A stretch of 6,779 nucleotides of DNA from Desulfuromonas sp. SDB (lineage in GTDB: Bacteria > SDB-A): the NCBI GenBank assembly GCA_001412365.1, contig LKUE01000233.1, positions 1-6,779 on the forward strand, in the 5' to 3' direction. The stretch's first letter is position 1. Each line of letters begins with the position of its first letter. The notes under the pieces were generated by a model. That model worked only from the letters and a program-made list of their open reading frames with translations. It did no database searches and was not told the origin of the DNA. Positions 1-6,779 of the stretch are shown in pieces. Both the position numbers and the translations under genes were made by a program.

Positions 1-317
1 TCCAGTACTGCAGGGATTACCTTTCCCTGTTTGATGAGTCTTTTCAATCTCTCTTTATTTGTCTGAGAGTATTCACTATTGGGTTTTCTCGGACTAAAGC
101 GTTGAGCATTCCTCTCTTCATCTAGCTTTTTATTAATGCTGTCGATCCATCCAAAGCAGAGTGCCTCTTCTACTGCATCATTATACGGAATACGGAGTTT
201 TCCGGTTTGCCTCCGGTAGTAAACCAACCAGATTTCATTTTCGGTTTGGTAATTCTTCTCCAACCAAACCCGCTAATCATCTCGATTAGTCACGTATAAT
301 GTTTTAGTTATTTCCAT
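1..317 (-). pseudogene. YdeI/OmpD-associated-family protein, N-terminal part, with in-frame amber codon
   Basis: From an ATG at 315-317 the minus strand reads MEITKTLYVTNRDD, then TAG (273-275), then continues in the same frame as RVWLEKNYQTENEIWLVYY and on through a GKLRIPYNDAVEEALCFGWID segment to the window edge. Conservation continues without a frameshift for about 90 codons after the stop. The family (YdeI/OmpD-associated, linked by annotation to bacteriocin or peptide resistance, biochemical role unclear) usually reads N-R-x-D-W-R-x-W-L here, so one TGG-to-TAG change would explain the stop. The gene starts 37 bp past attC 354-481, as the next cassette in the array should, and has no strong Shine-Dalgarno. 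TAG serves as a normal stop in mazE and fic in this window, so recoding is unlikely. It is most likely a recent pseudogene, or else a sequencing error. The C-terminus lies outside the window. Confidence 0.8.
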
Positions 318-353: not shown

Positions 354-481
354 GGCTAACGCTTAACTCACTCGCTGAAACAGCATAGAACTAAGCTATG
401 AAAAAGTATCGACTGTTCAAATCCCGCAAGAACTGGCCAAAGCGCTCTGCTGTTGCAGTCGGATGAAGCTTTGGGTTAGCC
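354..481 (-). other. attC recombination site (128 bp), end of beta-lactamase-fold cassette
   Basis: The outer boxes GGCTAAC (354-360) and GTTAGCC (475-481) are perfect inverted repeats and fit the RYYYAAC/GTTRRRY core consensus. Inside them, a CTGAAACAGCATAGA segment pairs almost completely with a downstream CTCTGCTGTTGCAG segment, giving a long imperfect hairpin. It lies 3' of the gene at 536-1564 and just 5' of the next start codon, as a cassette boundary should. Confidence 0.85.
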
Positions 482-535
482 ATTTCTTTACTAGTGATGA
501 TGACAATACCCGCTATTTGTTAGTGTTGTTTTTAA

Positions 536-1564
536 TCATATGTTATTGATTATTTTTAACATTATTTGGTATATGAGGCTGGGCTTGGCCTGTTGATTTA
601 TAGTGCCTGTGAAGTATAAATCCTTTTCAGGTACATAAAAGGCGACCGAACCAACCGAACCAGCATGACCGAGCAAAGGCGGCATTCTTCTGAACATTGT
701 AAAGACCGCTGGCAGACTAAATTTCTGTAAGCCAATCCCATATTCAAATGGAAAAAATACCTTATTCCACTTTTCCAACTCTACCAGTTTTTCATTAGGC
801 CAAAAGTATCCATTGAAAAACGCCTTAAGGAAGATCATCTGGTCACTGGCGGTAGAAATGATATCGTTTTTTGTGGAACTTATAAAGTTCGAAATTCCTA
901 TTTTTTTGTTTTTGTACCGGACAGGGACGTAACTCTTGTCATTTATATCACTGGCAACATAAGTATCATGCATGCCTAAATCTTTGAAAAGATTGTTTAA
1001 TACCTGGTTATTGGCTTGCCCAGTAACTTTTTCCACGACCAACTCTAACAATTGGTGGTTAGTGTCGATGTATTTGGCCTTGCCGGGCTCACCTGGAGGA
1101 AAATGAGGTTTCATTTTCTTCACTTCCTCGATTACCCTTTCCAAAGGCCAAGCTGGATCCAATCCAGCTTCCAAGTCTTCGATAACGGTGTGACCGTTTA
1201 TCTGCTTATCTGCTATATAGTCTGGTAGTCCGGAAGTCTGAGAAATCAGGTGCTTCAAAGTAATTTTTCTGGAATAATCCCTTCCATTCAGAACATGGAG
1301 ATTGGAAATTACATCGTCTGATACAAAGTCAGCAAATTTATCATCAAGCTTGAGATTACCGTTGGTGGCTAGACGTAAAATTAGGGAAGACATGAATATT
1401 TTATTGATACTGGCAACGTAGTATTTGCTGTTATTCTGAAAGTTACCGGTTGAGCTGATTAAGTCCATCATACCATCTCCGGAAGATACATTGATGACCG
1501 CACCGGCGATATTGCTTTTACCCACAGCTTTTGAGACTAATCTGTCCAAGTATTGATTATCCAT
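536..1564 (-). CDS. serine beta-lactamase-fold hydrolase (class C / PBP-like), no signal peptide
   Basis: A 342-residue protein of the Beta-lactamase (AmpC/esterase/DD-peptidase-like) family. The catalytic serine and lysine are in S52-I-N-K55 (SxxK). The second motif is Y165-I-D-T-N, at the usual YxN position but with D at the third place. The third motif is H300-A-G, equivalent to KTG. The segment LKHLISQTSGLPDY (about 103-116) is typical of the family. The N-terminus is polar (MDNQYLDRL), with no signal peptide or membrane anchor, so a cytoplasmic esterase or peptidase role is at least as likely as periplasmic beta-lactamase activity. The ATG start is supported by GGAG six bases upstream. 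The leader from the attC at 1612-1691 is only 47 bp and holds a small inverted repeat (1580-1594) but no clear promoter. Family assignment is firm; the substrate is unknown. Confidence 0.9.
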   Translation of the reverse strand: MDNQYLDRLVSKAVGKSNIAGAVINVSSGDGMMDLISSTGNFQNNSKYYVASINKIFMSSLILRLATNGNLKLDDKFADFVSDDVISNLHVLNGRDYSRKITLKHLISQTSGLPDYIADKQINGHTVIEDLEAGLDPAWPLERVIEEVKKMKPHFPPGEPGKAKYIDTNHQLLELVVEKVTGQANNQVLNNLFKDLGMHDTYVASDINDKSYVPVRYKNKKIGISNFISSTKNDIISTASDQMIFLKAFFNGYFWPNEKLVELEKWNKVFFPFEYGIGLQKFSLPAVFTMFRRMPPLLGHAGSVGSVAFYVPEKDLYFTGTINQQAKPSLIYQIMLKIINNI

Positions 1565-1611
1565 CCTGATCTCCCGAATGATAAACAGCTTATCGCATAC
1601 TGTTTTAAGTT

Positions 1612-1691
1612 GACTAACGCTAAGGCTCAGCGGATTGCGATTAGCTTTAACACAGCATAGACAGCAATATCGCCGCAGCCGTTTGTTATCT
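1612..1691 (-). other. attC recombination site (80 bp), end of phosphotransferase cassette
   Basis: The bounding boxes are GACTAAC (1612-1618) and GTTATCT (1685-1691). Inner arms GGCT-ca-GCGG-ATTGC pair with GCAAT-atcg-CCGC-AGCC, leaving the two unpaired (extrahelical-type) bases that mark attC hairpins. It starts 12 bp after the stop of the gene at 1704-2582. Its left arm resembles the attC at 354-481, and both contain an ACAGCATAGA segment. Confidence 0.88.
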
Positions 1692-1703
1692 GAACTATTA
1701 CCC

Positions 1704-2582
1704 TCATGATACTCGAATCAGGCAATTTAGCCGCTTTCTACATCCTATGATTGCATCCTTTAGCTCATTACGAATTGCATTACTATATGAATAAAGTTGG
1801 CTTCGTATCATCACCGCCAACATTAACTCCCTCAATGATAGAGATCCCTTTTCTATAGCATCAAGATAAGTCTGTAGGGAGTCTCTGGCTGCTTCTTTTA
1901 TCATCCACCATCCTTCTGGCACTTCATTGCATATATCTCTATCCCACAAATAACCTAAATCCGAGAAGTTCAGTGTATACCTTGAATAGCCCCAATCCAC
2001 AAAGCAGATTCTATCACGTGATAAGATGAGATTACCTGGATGTATATCTCCATGAGTGAGTGTAACGAAACCACTCTCTAATATTCGAAGAATATCACGG
2101 CAGTCTTGAATCATGGAATCAGATGAAATCTTAGATATTATTCTGACCTCATAATCAAGCATATCAGAGATACTGGCATGAATCGAATTGGTTATCTCAG
2201 ATTCTGCACCTGTCTGGCTAACATGCCTGAGGTGGAATGCACCCAATGCTCGAAAAGCCTCAGGAATTCTGCTGCGGTTATTCTCTCTAAGATCCGAACC
2301 ATCAAGATACTCCCATACTCCGAGAATTCCATCCTCATTCCGGATTTGCCCAAGCAATCTTGGGATGCATATTTCATCAGGATTTAGCGAATTCAGGTAT
2401 TTCTGTATTTCATTTTGCCCTTTAATATCATTGTGTTTTATCCATTTTAGGAATATGGAATCAACTTGGCGGTATATACGAAAGCTATTTTCCTGTATGC
2501 GTTCAATTTCCGAGACGCTATTCGGAGCAATGTCGGGCATTTCAGATAGAAGTAACTGTTTGATCTTCTGTTTCACTATCAA
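1704..2582 (-). CDS. aminoglycoside phosphotransferase/choline kinase-fold protein
   Basis: A 292-residue kinase-like phosphotransferase (APH superfamily). Visible landmarks are a candidate ATP-binding lysine K46 in FLKWIKH, a hinge-like WEYLDG (90-95), the Brenner catalytic motif H177-GDIHPG-N184, and the Mg-binding F-V-D196-W-G segment. Length and motif order fit the family. The substrate could be an aminoglycoside, choline, a hydroxyl-amino acid or another small molecule; the sequence does not decide, and resistance should not be assumed. The start is the TTG at 2580-2582, which has AAGG seven bases upstream; an in-frame GTG two codons later is the alternative. Only about 20 bp separate this start from the attC at 2602-2658, leaving no room for a full promoter of its own, so transcription probably enters from fic or further upstream. 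Confidence 0.85.
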   Translation of the reverse strand: MIVKQKIKQLLLSEMPDIAPNSVSEIERIQENSFRIYRQVDSIFLKWIKHNDIKGQNEIQKYLNSLNPDEICIPRLLGQIRNEDGILGVWEYLDGSDLRENNRSRIPEAFRALGAFHLRHVSQTGAESEITNSIHASISDMLDYEVRIISKISSDSMIQDCRDILRILESGFVTLTHGDIHPGNLILSRDRICFVDWGYSRYTLNFSDLGYLWDRDICNEVPEGWWMIKEAARDSLQTYLDAIEKGSLSLRELMLAVMIRSQLYSYSNAIRNELKDAIIGCRKRLNCLIRVS

Positions 2583-2601
2583 GCCATGACCTTCTCTTTA
2601 C

Positions 2602-2658
2602 AGATAACCGCTGCTGTTCAGCGGCTCGATAGCGTCCGATGCAACAGCATGGTTATCT
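2602..2658 (-). other. attC recombination site (57 bp), end of fic cassette
   Basis: AGATAACC (2602-2609) and GGTTATCT (2651-2658) are perfect inverted repeats. The inner arms TGCTGTT-CAGCGG and CCGATG-C-AACAGCA pair with one extrahelical base, the classic attC asymmetry. The outer AGATAAC box shares two bases with the fic TAG stop codon at 2657-2659. Confidence 0.9.
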
Positions 2659-3739
2659 ATCTAATCATTTTTAACAAATCAAAAAGTTTTTTATTAATAA
2701 ATATATTCTCTTTACCAAGTTTAAAAGATTCCAAGACTTTGATTTCTTCAAGTTGTTTTAAATATTTACTAGCAGTTCTTCTTTCAGCAATATTATTATT
2801 AACTAAATACTCTATTTTGGTATAAGGTTGAATAAATAAGCTTTCAATTAATTCTTTTGAATAAGTTGTTTTAGGCAATTTCTCTCTACAGTATGAAGTT
2901 GTTTCTTCAAGAAGTTCTCTTATTGATTGAATTATATTTAAAGTTTCTATTGATGTTTTTTCAACTGCTTCAAGTATAAATAAAATAAAGGTCTCCCAGT
3001 CTTCATCAGTTCTAATTTTTTGCAAATACTCATAATATTTATTTTTGTTTTTAATTATATAATCACTTAAATATAAAATTGGGCTTCTTAATAATTTTTT
3101 TAAGACCAAATATAATACATTAATTATCCTACCTGTTCTACCATTACCATCATAAAAGGGATGAATTGATTCAAATTGATAATGAATTACTGCCATTTTT
3201 ATTAATGGATCTGTGTTATCATCATCATTATTTATATATTTTTCCAGATTACTTAATAAACTATTTATTATTTGTTCATTATCAGGTGGTGTATAAATCA
3301 CCTCTCCAGTTTTATCATTAACTAAAGCTGTGCCAGGTAATTTTCTTATTCCAGCATCATTTTTTTCAAGTATTCTTTGAATATGAATAATTGTTTTGGT
3401 AATGAGTAAGTCTTTCTCTTTAATTAATTGATATCCATTCCAAAGAGCTTCTCTATAGTTTAATACTTCTTTTGTCTGAGGATCTACTTGTTGATTTTTC
3501 GCTATTAATGCTTTATATAAATTATCCTGGGTTGTGATAATATTTTCAATTTCTGAACTTGCCTGTGCTTCTTTCAATATTAAAGCATTAATTAAAATAT
3601 TTTCATTAGGAATTGTAGAACAATATCCATTTAATTTTGCAAGTTCAATGTTTGCTTTAATTGATTTTTTTAATATTTTTGGTGTTTCAACATTAATTAT
3701 TGGCGGTAATAAAGGTAAATTATTATTTGGATTATTCAT
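2657..3739 (-). CDS. fic: Fic-domain protein (class II AMPylase type) with C-terminal winged helix
   Basis: A 360-residue Fic protein. The active-site motif H193-PFYDGNGRTG-R204 matches HPFx(D/E)GNGRxxR, so transfer of AMP from ATP to target hydroxyls is the expected chemistry. S61-SEI-E65-N66 near the N-terminus matches the inhibitory helix motif (S/T)xxxE(G/N), which puts it in class II (SoFic/BtFic-like), where the inhibitory element is built in and no separate antitoxin is needed. The flap strand is near GEVIYTPPD (145-153). The C-terminal 50 residues (about 308-358, IAERRTASKYLKQLEE) look like a winged helix-turn-helix, as in related proteins of this length. The ATG has only a weak GAGA ribosome site. 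The coding sequence is far more AT-rich than its neighbours, suggesting separate origin. It stops inside the following attC. Confidence 0.93.
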   Translation of the reverse strand: MNNPNNNLPLLPPIINVETPKILKKSIKANIELAKLNGYCSTIPNENILINALILKEAQASSEIENIITTQDNLYKALIAKNQQVDPQTKEVLNYREALWNGYQLIKEKDLLITKTIIHIQRILEKNDAGIRKLPGTALVNDKTGEVIYTPPDNEQIINSLLSNLEKYINNDDDNTDPLIKMAVIHYQFESIHPFYDGNGRTGRIINVLYLVLKKLLRSPILYLSDYIIKNKNKYYEYLQKIRTDEDWETFILFILEAVEKTSIETLNIIQSIRELLEETTSYCREKLPKTTYSKELIESLFIQPYTKIEYLVNNNIAERRTASKYLKQLEEIKVLESFKLGKENIFINKKLFDLLKMIR

Positions 3740-3751
3740 ATAATTTTCTCA

Positions 3752-3809
3752 TGTACATAAAATTTAATTCATTGTACATTAATTTGATAACATGTGCAAG
3801 CTATGTACA
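3752..3809. promoter_or_regulatory. phased TGTACA-type operator array upstream of fic
   Basis: Palindromic TGTACA occurs at 3752-3757, 3773-3778 and 3804-3809, with a variant TGTGCA at 3793-3798. Two copies are extended to ATGTACAT. Start-to-start distances are 21, 20 and 11 bp, all near multiples of one helical turn, so bound proteins would sit on one face of the DNA. One box overlaps the -10 and another the -35 of the predicted fic promoter, which suggests repression. The regulator is unknown; the Fic winged helix is a candidate by inference only. Confidence 0.5.
3771..3799 (-). promoter_or_regulatory. predicted fic promoter
   Basis: On the minus strand, -35 TTGCAC (3794-3799) and -10 TACAAT (3771-3776) are separated by 17 bp. 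Transcription would start near 3764, giving a leader of about 25 nt. The -10 matches consensus at five of six positions; the -35 is weak. Confidence 0.5.
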
Positions 3810-3848
3810 TATAAATTAATATATTTTTAATTTGTATTACCAATGTAT

Positions 3849-3897
3849 AGATAACATTTATATTTTACTATATCAGATTAAATCTAACTATTATTGA
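3849..3897. repeat. 49-bp dispersed repeat, copy A
   Basis: Matches 5909-5957 at 41 of 49 positions without gaps. Both copies start with AG(A/T)TAAC, then share ATTTATATTTTA, a dyad GATTAAATC and TATTATTGA. The dyad is AGATTAAATCT here and TGATTAAATCA in copy B, a compensatory change that keeps the symmetry. Copy A lies about 110 bp upstream of the fic start. It could be a shared regulatory element or the remains of an AT-rich cassette end. Confidence 0.6.
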
Positions 3898-3941
3898 TCA
3901 ACACTCCCTTGTTAACCGGCATTTAGGATAAACCAGCTTCC

Positions 3942-4135
3942 TAATAGTAATTTTCAATCCCAAATCCGTATTGTTTATCTTGCTCTGTCTTCCGGATAAA
4001 ATGCTTTAGCCGTTTCTCAAACTCACCCGGTCTTTTCCTGCCGTTATCAATGTATGCGATCCGAATACGCTGATAGGCTCTCGAATACTTCTGATAGTTT
4101 TCCCAAGTGTATGGTGTTGTTGGTTCAATTTTATA
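3942..4135 (-). pseudogene. C-terminal remnant of a YdeI/OmpD-associated-family protein
   Basis: The minus strand encodes YKIEPTTPYTWENYQKYS, then AYQRIRIAYIDNGRKRPGEF, then EKRLKHFIRKTEQDKQYGFG and IENYY, ending at TAG (3942-3944). The W-E-N-Y-Q...Y-x-R-I-R-I-A-Y-I-D...K-R-P-x-E-F-E-K-R-L block is the C-terminal signature of YdeI-like proteins. There is no ATG, GTG or TTG in the segment, and nothing of the N-terminal part is nearby. It begins right after the mazF TAA and in the same frame, so any expression would need readthrough. It is a decayed or truncated passenger of the MazEF unit. It belongs to the same family as the gene at the window start but is not the missing part of that copy. 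Confidence 0.75.
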
Positions 4136-4465
4136 TTAAAAAGCGAATATTCTTTGAAGAATTGAAATGACATCCAACTGTGTTTTGGAATCTATTGTGC
4201 CAAGCTTCTTTACGAGTCTTGTTTTATCAATTGTTCGAAGCTGATCTAAAACAATTTGTCCCTTTTTCTTTTGGAAAGTACAGGAGACACGTGTTGGATA
4301 ATCTTTTTGAGCAGACGTCATAGGAGCAATGATTGCCGTTCGTATATTGCGATTCATTTCATCAGGTGAAATTACCAAGCAGGTCCTTGTTTTTTGGATC
4401 TCTGAATCAATTGTAGGATCAAGGGTGACCAAATATACATCAAAACGTTTCACTACCATTGCCAT
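4136..4465 (-). CDS. mazF: MazF/PemK-family endoribonuclease toxin
   Basis: A 109-residue protein of the MazF/PemK family, which cleaves mRNA at short single-stranded sequences and is neutralised by its cognate MazE. The family landmarks are clear: RFDVYLVTLDPTIDSEIQKTR (10-residue beta core, then the active-site R in KTR), CLVISPDEMN, IIAPMTS with the conserved S/T, and GQIVLDQLRTIDKTRLVKKLG. The usual KTRPCLV reads KTRTCLV, a small deviation. The ATG start overlaps the end of mazE by 13 bp; an in-frame ATG two codons later and a GTG are alternatives, and there is no strong ribosome site of its own, so translation is probably coupled to mazE. The TAA stop runs straight into the in-frame YdeI-like remnant. 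Confidence 0.95.
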   Translation of the reverse strand: MAMVVKRFDVYLVTLDPTIDSEIQKTRTCLVISPDEMNRNIRTAIIAPMTSAQKDYPTRVSCTFQKKKGQIVLDQLRTIDKTRLVKKLGTIDSKTQLDVISILQRIFAF

Positions 4466-4704
4466 TCTTCATCATCCCATGAATGCGAAATATTATCATC
4501 AATGATTAGCTTGTCGCCGTTCTTCTCCCCTATAGCCTTGAAAGCAGCATCCCACCCATCACGAACATCTTTGACCGGTCGAATGATGATTTGGTTTTTT
4601 TCAACCTCAATTTCAACATTATCCATAATACCTGTTTGATCAAGGATGGGTTTCGGAATACGCAACCCCTGGGAATTACCTATTTTTATTATCCGTGCGC
4701 GCAT
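4453..4704 (-). CDS. mazE: MazE-family antitoxin (AbrB/SpoVT-type swapped-hairpin DNA binding)
   Basis: An 83-residue antitoxin. The N-terminal half (MRARIIKIGNSQGLRIPKP and on to about residue 45) is the AbrB/MazE swapped-hairpin DNA-binding domain. The acidic tail (DDNISHSWDDEEWQW) is the flexible part that blocks the MazF active site in this family. AGGAG seven bases upstream gives a strong ribosome site for the ATG. The gene ends with TAG followed at once by an in-frame TGA, and mazF begins within its last codons. With its own promoter and a palindrome at the -10, it should be autoregulated as other MazEF pairs are. Confidence 0.95.
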   Translation of the reverse strand: MRARIIKIGNSQGLRIPKPILDQTGIMDNVEIEVEKNQIIIRPVKDVRDGWDAAFKAIGEKNGDKLIIDDNISHSWDDEEWQW

Positions 4705-4736
4705 TAGTCTTCTCCTTTGCCATGTTATGTAAGCAC

Positions 4737-4765
4737 ATTGTAATTACATGTCCGGCAATAGTCAA
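4737..4765 (-). promoter_or_regulatory. mazEF promoter
   Basis: Minus-strand -35 TTGACT (4760-4765), 17-bp spacer, -10 TACAAT (4737-4742). The -35 and -10 each match consensus at five of six positions, and the leader to mazE would be about 25 nt with a strong ribosome site. Confidence 0.75.
4739..4748. promoter_or_regulatory. palindromic operator at the mazEF -10
   Basis: TGTAATTACA is a perfect 10-bp palindrome overlapping the -10, flanked by further ACAT/ATGT sequence. MazE-type antitoxins bind such sites to repress their own operon, so this is the likely autoregulatory operator. Confidence 0.5.
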
Positions 4766-4792
4766 GGATAAATTTTATAGGCTTAATGCTGC

Positions 4793-4853
4793 AAATAACC
4801 GGTGCAAATGTAGCCCAGCGGAATTTTCGTCCGAGTGTATGCGGTTGTTAGAC
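4793..4853 (-). other. attC-like site (61 bp), end of PadR-monooxygenase cassette
   Basis: The bounding boxes are AAATAAC (4793-4799) and GTTAGAC (4847-4853). The inner arms GCAAATGTAG and GTGTATGC pair only with help from G-T wobbles, so the hairpin is weaker than in the attC sites at 354-481, 1612-1691 and 2602-2658. Its position between the terminator at 4896-4928 and the mazEF promoter is right for a cassette boundary. Confidence 0.6.
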
Positions 4854-4895
4854 ATTACTACTTAACACACTATTTTTTTAAACTTTTTTACAAAA

Positions 4896-4928
4896 ATTCC
4901 ATACCTGCCAAAAAGGCAGGTATGGAAT
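4896..4928 (-). terminator. Rho-independent terminator of the PadR-monooxygenase operon
   Basis: A perfect 14-bp stem (ATTCCATACCTGCC and its complement) closes a 5-nt loop. Read on the minus strand it runs into a T-tract; the plus strand has no T-run after it, so it acts for the minus-strand operon. It lies 28 bp past the stop at 4956 and before the attC. Confidence 0.88.
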
Positions 4929-4955
4929 AATTGCCAAGTATCTAATTGTTTACAA

Positions 4956-5327
4956 TTAACTCATTACTGGATGCCAGCCATCTACCAATTGATAATTTTC
5001 AGTTTTGAATCCTTTTACAGCTTTATGAAAAATTTCAGAAATATTTTCCCCATGTGCCTTTTTAAAAGATTCACTGCTTTTCCATACATCAAAAGATTCC
5101 TTGCTTTCCCACATAGATAAAGCAACTATTTTCCCTGAATCATTTGCTTTTTTCATGACTGTATACTGAATCAATCCAGATTGATTTTGTAATTCTTTAT
5201 TGGAATCTATAATCTCATTCAGTATAATTTTCTCTTTGCCAGCATTTGCCTCAACTTCATGCATTACAATATAAACATTTCCAGTTGAGTGTGAGTGTAA
5301 CCTATTGCCTAGATTGTTTTTTTTCAT
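4956..5327 (-). CDS. antibiotic biosynthesis monooxygenase (ABM)-domain protein
   Basis: A 123-residue protein with a single ABM ferredoxin-like domain (about residues 17-110). Visible are the first strand VYIVMHEVEA, the middle GLIQYTVMKKAND with SMWESKESFDVWKSSESF (the family's W-E-S...W...S..F...H pattern), and the helix ending KAHGENISEIF. Members act as cofactor-free quinone-forming monooxygenases, haem-degrading enzymes or small-molecule binders; which applies here cannot be told. A 16-residue polar extension precedes the domain. The ATG overlaps the padR stop in an ATGA, and AGGAG eight bases upstream is a strong ribosome site. Co-transcription with padR suggests the enzyme handles a compound that the regulator senses. 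Confidence 0.85.
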   Translation of the reverse strand: MKKNNLGNRLHSHSTGNVYIVMHEVEANAGKEKIILNEIIDSNKELQNQSGLIQYTVMKKANDSGKIVALSMWESKESFDVWKSSESFKKAHGENISEIFHKAVKGFKTENYQLVDGWHPVMS

Positions 5328-5854
5328 GTGCGCTTCTCCTGTTTTAGTTTTAAAATTAGCTCGCTAATAAATTCGTACTCCAGAGAGGTCTGTCGTACGA
5401 TAAAATCGAGACCAGGATGTAATGCGCGGATGTCGTCAGAGAATATTTTAAGAGATTCACAACGATCTGCAAGGCGCGCTTGACGTTCTTCAAGAAGACT
5501 CAAGCTTTCCTCTGGCTCTATAAGTCCAATTAAATTTAAAGATACTCCATCTGGGTACTCACTTGGATAATTTTCAGCTAATCGCTCCCTGAGCAAGCGA
5601 TGTAACTCCTTCTCTCCTTTAGGTGTTATCGAATAAACTAGTCGCAAAGGATAGTTATGATTACGTTCCTCATGAGAAGATACAAATCCATCTTCCTGTA
5701 ATTTACCAAGAAGCTTATAGGCATTTGCTTTTCCAATTTTGATTACATTTCCAGGCATTTTTAAAAACTCATTCAATTTGTAACCATGAGTAGATTGATT
5801 TTGCAAAATACCAAGAAGTAAAAGTTTTTTATCTTTTAAAGAACTCATGGTCAT
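5324..5854 (-). CDS. PadR-family transcriptional regulator
   Basis: A 176-residue regulator. The N-terminal winged helix is typical of PadR: KKLLLLGILQNQSTHGYKLN, then KIGKANAYKLLGKLQEDGFV, then YSITPKGEKELHRLL. A helical C-terminal region (about 95-176) should give the dimerisation and ligand part. The family usually represses genes for phenolic-acid or drug detoxification and itself. The ORF can start at 5854 (MTMSSL) or two codons later at 5848; the second matches usual PadR starts better. The promoter lies so close that transcription should begin at about 5848-5850, giving a leaderless mRNA, and there is no Shine-Dalgarno sequence. The stop overlaps the monooxygenase start by four bases. 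Confidence 0.87.
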   Translation of the reverse strand: MTMSSLKDKKLLLLGILQNQSTHGYKLNEFLKMPGNVIKIGKANAYKLLGKLQEDGFVSSHEERNHNYPLRLVYSITPKGEKELHRLLRERLAENYPSEYPDGVSLNLIGLIEPEESLSLLEERQARLADRCESLKIFSDDIRALHPGLDFIVRQTSLEYEFISELILKLKQEKRT

Positions 5855-5855
5855 T

Positions 5856-5884
5856 ATTATAATATTCTAAAGGTGAATAGTCAA
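5856..5884 (-). promoter_or_regulatory. padR operon promoter, near consensus, abutting the start codon
   Basis: Minus-strand -35 TTGACT (5879-5884), 17-bp spacer, -10 TATAAT (5856-5861, perfect). The first possible start codon begins one base after the -10, so initiation would fall at or beside the second ATG (5846-5848). Confidence 0.8.
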
Positions 5885-5893
5885 TAGTGAATA
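5873..5893. repeat. three tandem heptamers over the padR -35
   Basis: On the plus strand GTGAATA, GTCAATA and GTGAATA follow one another with no spacer; the -35 TTGACT is built from the first and middle copies. The outermost copy also forms an imperfect palindrome, GTGAATATACAC (5887-5898). Placement suggests an operator for PadR autoregulation; this is inference. Confidence 0.5.
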
Positions 5894-5908
5894 TACACTT
5901 TTTTTTAG

Positions 5909-5957
5909 AGTTAACATTTATATTTTAAAGTATATGATTAAATCAAAATATTATTGA
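5909..5957. repeat. 49-bp dispersed repeat, copy B
   Basis: Partner of 3849-3897, with the dyad TGATTAAATCA at 5935-5945, the same 20 bases from the TAAC as in copy A. It lies upstream of the padR promoter. Confidence 0.6.
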
Positions 5958-6020
5958 ATTGATCTTTATTTGTCAAAATAATACCGCAAATAATGACATT
6001 AAGTGGCTTATATAATTATC

Positions 6021-6089
6021 TTGTAACTGACTAGGCATAAATATCATAAAAATGTATGTTAAAAATGTTGGTTTCTGCCTTGGTTAAGT
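6021..6089 (-). other. possible degenerate attC after the VOC gene
   Basis: TTGTAAC (6021-6027) and GTTAAGT (6083-6089) bound an inner AGGCA/TGCCT pair (6033-6037, 6076-6080). The site lies 20 bp past the VOC stop, where an attC is expected, but one box departs from consensus and the stem is short. Confidence 0.35.
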
Positions 6090-6109
6090 GAAATTTTATA
6101 TCCTATTTA

Positions 6110-6478
6110 TTACAGTTTTTGACCAATATCAATTTTATAATTATCAGGATCAAAAACTGACAATATTTTCACATCGTTTTGGACAACATATGGACCGTCA
6201 AAGTTAACCAGCCCTCTTTCTTTTAAAATCTGAAAATCTTTGTCAAGATCAATAGATTCTAGTGCCAAGTGAGGAGATGGATTTTGATCAGAGTATATGT
6301 TTTTATTCTCATCAATAGAAACTAATTCTAATAAAACTCCACTATTATTAAGATCTAAATAAACGTATCCATCATTTCTTGTATCCGTTTCTACAATCTT
6401 GAAACCAAGAATTTTAGTATAGAAATCAACAGATTTGTTTATATCACTAACTTGAATTGCAAAATGATGCATTCGCAT
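6110..6478 (-). CDS. VOC-superfamily protein (glyoxalase/bleomycin-resistance/dioxygenase fold)
   Basis: A 122-residue protein with two beta-alpha-beta-beta-beta modules. Module one begins MHHFAIQVSDINKSVDFYTK, then LGFKIVE; module two begins PHLALESIDLD and ends FDPDNYKIDIGQ. Candidate metal ligands are H5, E51 (LLELV), H70 and D117, where the family commonly has glutamate. A glyoxalase, dioxygenase, fosfomycin- or bleomycin-type resistance protein, or a simple binding protein are all possible. The ATG at 6478 has AAGGAA at about ten bases; an in-frame ATG two codons on is the alternative. The gene starts 31 bp after the attC-like site at 6510-6569, as in a cassette, and no clear promoter is seen in that leader. 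Confidence 0.88.
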   Translation of the reverse strand: MRMHHFAIQVSDINKSVDFYTKILGFKIVETDTRNDGYVYLDLNNSGVLLELVSIDENKNIYSDQNPSPHLALESIDLDKDFQILKERGLVNFDGPYVVQNDVKILSVFDPDNYKIDIGQKL

Positions 6479-6509
6479 ATTTTTTGTTTCCTTTTTTAAA
6501 TTTAATTCT

Positions 6510-6569
6510 ATTTAACGTTAAGCTTACCGGCGCTTAACTATGGGCGTCCTGTGCAGTGTCTTGTTAGGT
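6510..6569 (-). other. attC-like site (60 bp) upstream of the VOC cassette
   Basis: ATTTAAC (6510-6516) and GTTAGGT (6563-6569) can pair over all seven bases, two by wobble, and both fit the core consensus. An inner GGCGC pairs with GCG-T-CC leaving one extrahelical base. The arm between these is poorly paired, so it is a weaker site than that at 2602-2658. Confidence 0.6.
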
Positions 6570-6671: not shown

Positions 6672-6779
6672 TCACAGATCAACAGGTAAAGGGTTCGACA
6701 TTGCCTGAATCAAAGTATTGATCCATGGCGAAAAATGTCCTGCATACCGCTGCTGGAGAACCTCTAATTTCCAGTCATT
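6672..6779 (-). CDS. unrecognised protein, C-terminal 35 residues only
   Basis: The minus strand entering from the window edge reads NDWKLEVLQQRYAGHF, then SPWINTLIQAMSNPLPVDL, and ends at TGA (6672-6674). It is open over its whole visible length and has a protein-like composition with several aromatic residues (two W, Y, F), but it is too short to place in a family. It would be the gene of the cassette ending in the attC-like site at 6510-6569. The 100 bases between its stop and that site show no gene, terminator or repeat that I can support. Confidence 0.55.
   Translation of the reverse strand, partial: NDWKLEVLQQRYAGHFSPWINTLIQAMSNPLPVDL

Follow-up and report, generated by a model that had tools for sequence, protein, structure and literature searches.

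The integron integrase, IntI, inserts and excises single genes via folded single-stranded attC sites. In Vibrio superintegrons these sites are near-identical, and large integrons are thought to be mostly silent past their first cassettes, transcription coming from the promoter Pc beside the attI site. Within arrays of class 1 and class 2 mobile integrons, delta-attI-type cassettes have been documented that are recombinationally functional and keep 14-18 nucleotides (nt) of attI, 244 nt in one type (PMC12901181). Here we consider a contig of 6,779 bp from the uncultured bacterium Desulfuromonas sp. SDB, contig C233, which was analysed in its entirety and is referred to as the window; each of its ends truncates an open reading frame (ORF). 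An earlier note, made from the letters alone, had read it as an integron cassette array. We conclude that the window is very likely an inner array segment of a chromosomal-type integron whose platform is on C253, another contig in this metagenome-assembled genome (MAG; 3.14 Mb in 433 contigs, 98.7% complete, 3.91% contaminated), and that two of its cassettes, carrying a Fic gene and a PadR-ABM gene pair, are probably of the delta-attI type.

The platform on C253 encodes an integrase of 414 amino acids (aa; C253:64-1305) that matches TIGR02249 with 395.6 bits (cut-off 265) and is the sole full match in the genome. Its residues 113-413 can be aligned with 2a3v, the solved structure of a Vibrio integron integrase, and the alignment covers both the patch (ALERKYPKAGKEWGWFWIFPS...RRHH) and the positions of the catalytic R, H, R and Y. 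Over the common part it is about 46% identical to a plasmid-borne class 3 IntI, and its N-terminal extension of about 100 residues is also present in relatives from Nitrospirae and Deltaproteobacteria MAGs. Adjoining intI, at 1380-1446, are Pc (TTGACT-17-TATACT) and attI (AAAATATAAATG/TTGGGC), followed by a cassette for a TIR protein. Because an intact, patch-bearing IntI is thus encoded in the same MAG, beside an attI and cassettes, the array of the window is an orphan only as assembled: that no integrase is in view, as the earlier note had remarked, holds for the window only in that the window is an entire contig, and the patch-bearing integrase which the note had proposed to seek is the one on C253. 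A second, shorter recombinase, IntI/XerA-like and patchless (C394:4235-5083, 282 aa), adjoins a DNA methyltransferase and restriction-type genes.

The longest repeat of the window (52 nt, 83%) is the attI region of this integron. It belongs to two copies of about 64 nt, each of which terminates exactly at a cassette GTT, one before PadR-ABM and one before Fic:

5913 to 5976, minus strand: attI-Pc copy 1 (TTGACA-17-TAATAT ... AAAATATAAATGTT), from alignments; R1 46.6 bits, E 1.2e-11, an R1 training sequence
3853 to 3915, minus strand: attI-Pc copy 2 (TTAACA ... GTAAAATATAAATGTT), start of the Fic cassette, from alignments; R1 50.4 bits, E 7.5e-13, an R1 training sequence

Together with the C253 platform and a copy on C348, these align from the -35 hexamer to the GTT, and their 3' core is identical to the C253 attI at 26 of 26 positions on C348 and at 23 of 26 and 21 of 26 in the window. 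Homology is limited to a core of about 66 nt with unrelated flanks; an extension upstream towards intI was sought and not found. R1 is a sequence-only model built from five copies, and those used for training necessarily score high; it recovers a copy outside its training set on C195 (E 2.1e-6), and C79 holds one training copy and one weak copy. The copy on C223 has two mismatches in 23 positions. Copy 2 lies within two mismatches of the C253 23-mer, for which the reversed control finds a single genome match at up to three mismatches. The TTGACA-17-TAATAT of copy 1 is among the best-scoring promoter-like sites of the window, which as a whole has no excess of such sites (31 observed, 28.1 expected). 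Around five IntI relatives (Nitrospirae and Deltaproteobacteria MAGs, Desulfothermus), attI was not repeated in the flanks, which covered at most 8 kb of array and in some cases far less; within this IntI clade, a repeated attI is thus no general trait.

To the left of the three array copies associated with PadR, Fic and HerA stands an attC with R'' and L'', whose right half is undetectable. In a control, the true R' was returned as best partner by 5/5 control attCs. The window contains the following half sites, the last of them joined to the remnant of another cassette gene:

6066 to 6089, minus strand: left half (R''-L'') of the VOC cassette attC; R'' ACTTAAC pairs 6/7 with the VOC start GTTAAAT
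3896 to 3917, minus strand: attC left half, R'' GGTTAAC, fused to the -35 end of copy 2; R2 10.6 bits, sixth in the window
4101 to 4124, minus strand: apparent attC left half following MazF and running into what is left of a different cassette's ORF at its 3' end (sequence reading)
3941 to 4100, minus strand: 3' end left over from a cassette ORF, resembling YdeI by eye (sequence reading)

None of the three halves has a right-half partner, and for the first two no candidate rises above shuffles. At the Fic copy, R'' meets the -35 end directly, leaving 62 nt to the GTT. The segment 3941-4124, in which the apparent half attC after MazF is joined to the 3' end of a different cassette's ORF, is a deletion scar.

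The published delta-attI type resembles this arrangement in that, inside an array, attI sequence up to the crossover GTT replaces the attC and the next cassette follows directly (PMC12901181), and the delta-attI2 core AATAAAATGTTRRRY described there is similar to AATATAAATGTT here. It differs in that about 64 nt including a Pc-like promoter are present here, in several divergent copies per genome, some of which adjoin chromosomal genes, and in that the IntI belongs to another clade. As judged from sequence, a promoter region both retained and repeated within one genome appears to be new relative to the published delta-attI cassettes.

The array itself is ordinary in kind. A generic R''/R' stem search of the minus strand, with dinucleotide shuffles as control, returned exactly the three attC sites that had been proposed by eye (2602-2658, 354-481 and 1612-1691), with scores of 39.0, 26.5 and 24.5, respectively; the shuffles gave on average 0.475 sites at 24 or more and none at 32 or more. 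By stem alone, 2602-2658 is thus far above chance and the other two are marginal, and the single-strand folding z-scores are -5.35 for 2602-2658, -1.94 for 354-481 and -0.49 for 1612-1691. We also used an attC covariance model, R2, built from eight seed candidates that all lie off the window (C253, C348, C195, C79 and C223), on which the attC pairing was imposed, with seven pairs for R, two outer plus six inner pairs for L, and extrahelical bases. In an unfiltered search its five top matches in the window are all on the minus strand and all intergenic, and they include all three proposed sites:

6510 to 6569, minus strand: attC site A, degenerate; R2 14.9 bits, E 0.07, fourth
4781 to 4853, minus strand: attC site C, R' mutated to ATTAAGC; R2 16.6 bits, E 0.028, third
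2602 to 2658, minus strand: attC site E; R2 31.6 bits, E 6.5e-6 at 2603-2657, first; stem score 39.0
1612 to 1691, minus strand: attC site F; R2 21.7 bits, E 0.0016, second
354 to 481, minus strand: attC site G, 128 nt; R2 12.7 bits, E 0.24, fifth; stem score 26.5

The seed alignment has two extra L'' bases opposite a single A, as do sites E and F. On nine loci of the same genome R2 finds attCs on C253, C348, C195, C79, C67, C184, C363 and C223, seeds being partly included; a whole-genome search overlooked window matches seen in the unfiltered one and is therefore an undercount. An Rfam search, at gathering and at relaxed thresholds, gave no relevant match. The boundaries that the earlier note had taken to be attC-like throughout are so at its three sites and at two it had not listed (4781-4853 and 6510-6569), whereas those before Fic and PadR are attI-like. 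The shared ACAGCAT segment it had pointed to is indeed present, as a single copy per site (plus strand, 380, 1652 and 2644), in an arm in one and in the loop in two; given these differing places, it is poor evidence of common ancestry.

A cassette circle joins its own first bases to its own attC, so that the R'' at the far end of a cassette should complement the first seven bases of that same cassette more fully than those coming next in the array. Across 17 cassettes the pairing of R'' with the own start averages 6.3 of 7 positions and is exact in nine, compared with 4.9 for the next junction, and none of 20,000 shuffles reached the observed total. The start of the Fic cassette, GTTATCT, is the exact complement of R'' AGATAAC at site E (7/7); the R'' of site F, again AGATAAC, pairs 7/7 with the start of its own APH cassette and 4/7 with the next; the cassette of the beta-lactamase-fold gene pairs at 6/7 plus a G-T pair; and on C253 the TIR cassette starts with GTTGGGC and has R'' GCCCAAC. 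For PadR-ABM the pairing is only 4/7. Taken together, attC matches that all point the same way, cassettes whose starts pair with their own R'' and unrelated cargo bear out the reading as an integron array. Like sedentary chromosomal integrons and clusters of attC sites lacking integron-integrases (CALINs), it has several attCs that share an orientation, its cassettes hold one or two genes each, its cargo includes toxin-antitoxin and defence genes, and some cassettes have promoter-like sites of their own; the label CALIN fits only the contig as assembled, as intI is present on C253. Unlike those of the Vibrio superintegrons, its attC sites are diverse.

By what route could Pc-attI sequence have come to stand where an attC is expected? 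We envision that the Fic and PadR-ABM cassettes were placed directly behind Pc-attI copies instead of behind an attC, either by recombination or by a later rearrangement between the R'' of the upstream cassette's attC and the attI region, whereby attI sequence would take the place of the right half of the attC in a piece long enough to hold the Pc region. In its simplest form, a one-step R'' x attI exchange, this scheme fits the sequence of the Fic copy and is a poorer match for those of PadR and HerA. Several observations weigh against our interpretation as a whole. The distance from R'' to the attI GTT is 174 nt at the PadR copy and 425 nt at the HerA copy, and at neither does the additional DNA show detectable similarity to the sequence preceding attI on C253, a likeness that a one-step exchange would predict. 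The C195 and C223 copies come after ordinary genes, not cassettes. Sites 4781-4853, 6510-6569 and 354-481 are individually weak (E 0.03-0.24), and because the seeds of R2, like some of the R'' entries, had been chosen by eye, the permutation test was not blind. Finally, C233 is a separate contig, no overlap of it with C253 or C348 was found, and its link to C253 rests on the common genome bin and the attI sequence, not on assembly.

Some of these observations would be more readily accommodated if the attI-Pc copies were relics of former complete platforms, tandem or dispersed, that have lost intI, the genome thus harbouring several decayed integrons. This is the main rival to our interpretation: the copies on C195 and C223 begin cassette runs beside ordinary genes, and 174-425 nt of unexplained DNA lie to the left of two array copies. 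We nevertheless consider it unlikely, in view of the half attC that abuts the Fic copy, of the lack of similarity to the intI-proximal flank upstream of every copy, and of the single full integron integrase in the genome. Conversely, one might propose that the integron repeatedly copies its own Pc-attI into the array and the chromosome, yielding a multi-entry, multi-promoter system in which inner cassettes are expressed; we regard so far-reaching a version as improbable. The sequence itself shows the attC sites with their orientation, the pairing of R'' with the start of its own cassette, the attI-Pc homology and the half attCs left of the copies; we infer from these how the copies may have formed, and that they may drive transcription or serve as insertion points. 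The window copies, being degenerate in their hexamers, may be inactive. If active, Pc-attI copies inside an array could supply inner genes with a promoter, would break the rule of silence past the first cassettes and might add landing sites. On our interpretation of the Fic and PadR-ABM cassettes, the delta-attI type would occur also in an integron of chromosomal type, from an environmental lineage of which few members have been sampled, and how such cassettes arise could be tested where no antibiotic selection acts.

A further concern is that C233, C253 or both derive from another organism of the metagenome, as the 433 contigs and 3.91% contamination would allow. The comparison genomes, three others of the same family, yield no attC-model match, no significant attI-model match and no IntI, and the missing integrase speaks for such a binning artefact. 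Yet the same attI copies and attC type recur on many contigs of the bin, some of which carry ordinary chromosomal genes (C67, C184, C195 and C223), and we therefore rate an artefact as quite improbable. Even less can be said for the notion that the ~64-nt repeats represent a promoter motif in general use in the genome and not attI copies: they do hold -35/-10-like hexamers, and a partial copy at position 1970 of C195 precedes a small ORF without a clear attC, but in the genome the core 16-mer is not enriched over its reversed control (18 versus 17 at up to two mismatches), the 23-mer is found at cassette starts with none seen elsewhere (6 versus 1 in the control), and the copies stop exactly at the cassette GTT, with the Fic R'' pairing exactly with the junction. 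On the genome counts of the 16-mer and 23-mer, this explanation was rejected. Scarcely credible, lastly, is an ordinary gene neighbourhood or defence island with hairpins that are terminators or chance, since the individual weakness of several sites, the promoter-like sites at PadR and MazE and a terminator-like hairpin (4896-4928) are set against the R2 ranking, the single orientation, the own-start pairing, the IntI that this genome encodes together with a canonical attI array, and three same-family genomes in which, without attC-model or IntI matches, no conserved operon of this kind is seen.

The main genes of the window all lie on the minus strand, their cargo is unrelated, and cassette GC content spans 24% to 40%. 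In array order, features other than the recombination sites are:

6672 to 6779, minus strand: 3' end of a truncated cassette ORF, an open frame without start, cut by the contig end; SET-domain-like by eye
6110 to 6478, minus strand: VOC/glyoxalase-fold ORF (Pfam PF00903, 9.8e-14)
5324 to 5854, minus strand: PadR-family regulator (Pfam PF03551, 3.7e-14)
4956 to 5327, minus strand: ABM, heme-degrading-type monooxygenase (PF03992, 9.4e-13), overlapping PadR by 4 nt
4896 to 4928, minus strand: intrinsic-terminator-like hairpin within the PadR-ABM cassette, 14-bp stem and T tract
4453 to 4704, minus strand: MazE-like antitoxin (Pfam PF04014, 4.6e-7)
4136 to 4465, minus strand: PemK/MazF-like toxin (Pfam PF02452, 4.1e-28)
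2657 to 3739, minus strand: Fic protein adenylyltransferase, SoFic type (Pfam PF13784/PF02661/PF21248)
1704 to 2582, minus strand: APH-fold phosphotransferase (Pfam PF01636, 8.8e-14)
536 to 1564, minus strand: serine-hydrolase/beta-lactamase-fold protein (Pfam PF00144, 4.2e-27)
3 to 263, minus strand: 5' part of the next cassette ORF, an open frame truncated by the contig end; YdeI-like by eye

Pfam thus supports the functions proposed earlier for Fic, PemK/MazE, APH, the beta-lactamase fold and VOC; the YdeI-like label is without family support, as the ORF at 3-263 has no Pfam match and a 38-aa piece of the remnant at 3941-4100 none in NCBIfam. Closer assignments stay below their cut-offs: Fic reaches 439 bits against NF046030 (cut-off 550), the ABM monooxygenase matches HmuQ weakly (38.8 bits, cut-off 130), and AmpH is the best named match of the product of 536-1564, far under its cut-off. 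PadR and MazE each have a promoter-like site of their own (TTGACT-17-TATAAT at 5884-5856 and TTGACT-17-TACAAT at 4765-4737). The ORF at 6672-6779 and C79:2033-2069 have 37 nt in common at 95% identity.

Elsewhere in the genome, C253 ends and C348 starts within one restriction-modification gene, the two overlapping with the frame kept. The array that they share is rich in defence-like cargo, namely a TIR protein, an AAA/OLD-like ATPase, the type-IIG-like restriction gene that runs into C348, DUF3800 and a HerA-like ATPase; DUF4145 stands before the restriction gene, and ORF6N between DUF3800 and the HerA-like ATPase. A further cassette run (C363, 440-5830) contains an additional MazE/PemK pair and an additional APH-fold kinase, in each case the second. 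Single cassettes with a good attC occur on C184 (1294-1912, a GNAT cassette inside a run of lipoprotein-type genes) and on C67 (83-700, a cassette of unknown content that precedes a dapB-like gene), and such single cassettes among chromosomal genes are the pattern expected of attG-type insertion. According to the account of Loot et al. (2024) cited in PMC12901181, attG sites need no attI homology; set beside that account, the dispersed single cassettes on C184 and C67 are alike, and the repeats described here, homologous to attI-Pc over about 64 nt, are unlike. C253 also has a gene-less mini-cassette (2357-2520), its start GTTGCAG and R'' CTGCAAC lying about 20 nt apart and followed by an attC-like element of 151 nt, and an element similar to it is present on C223 at about 1900-2060.

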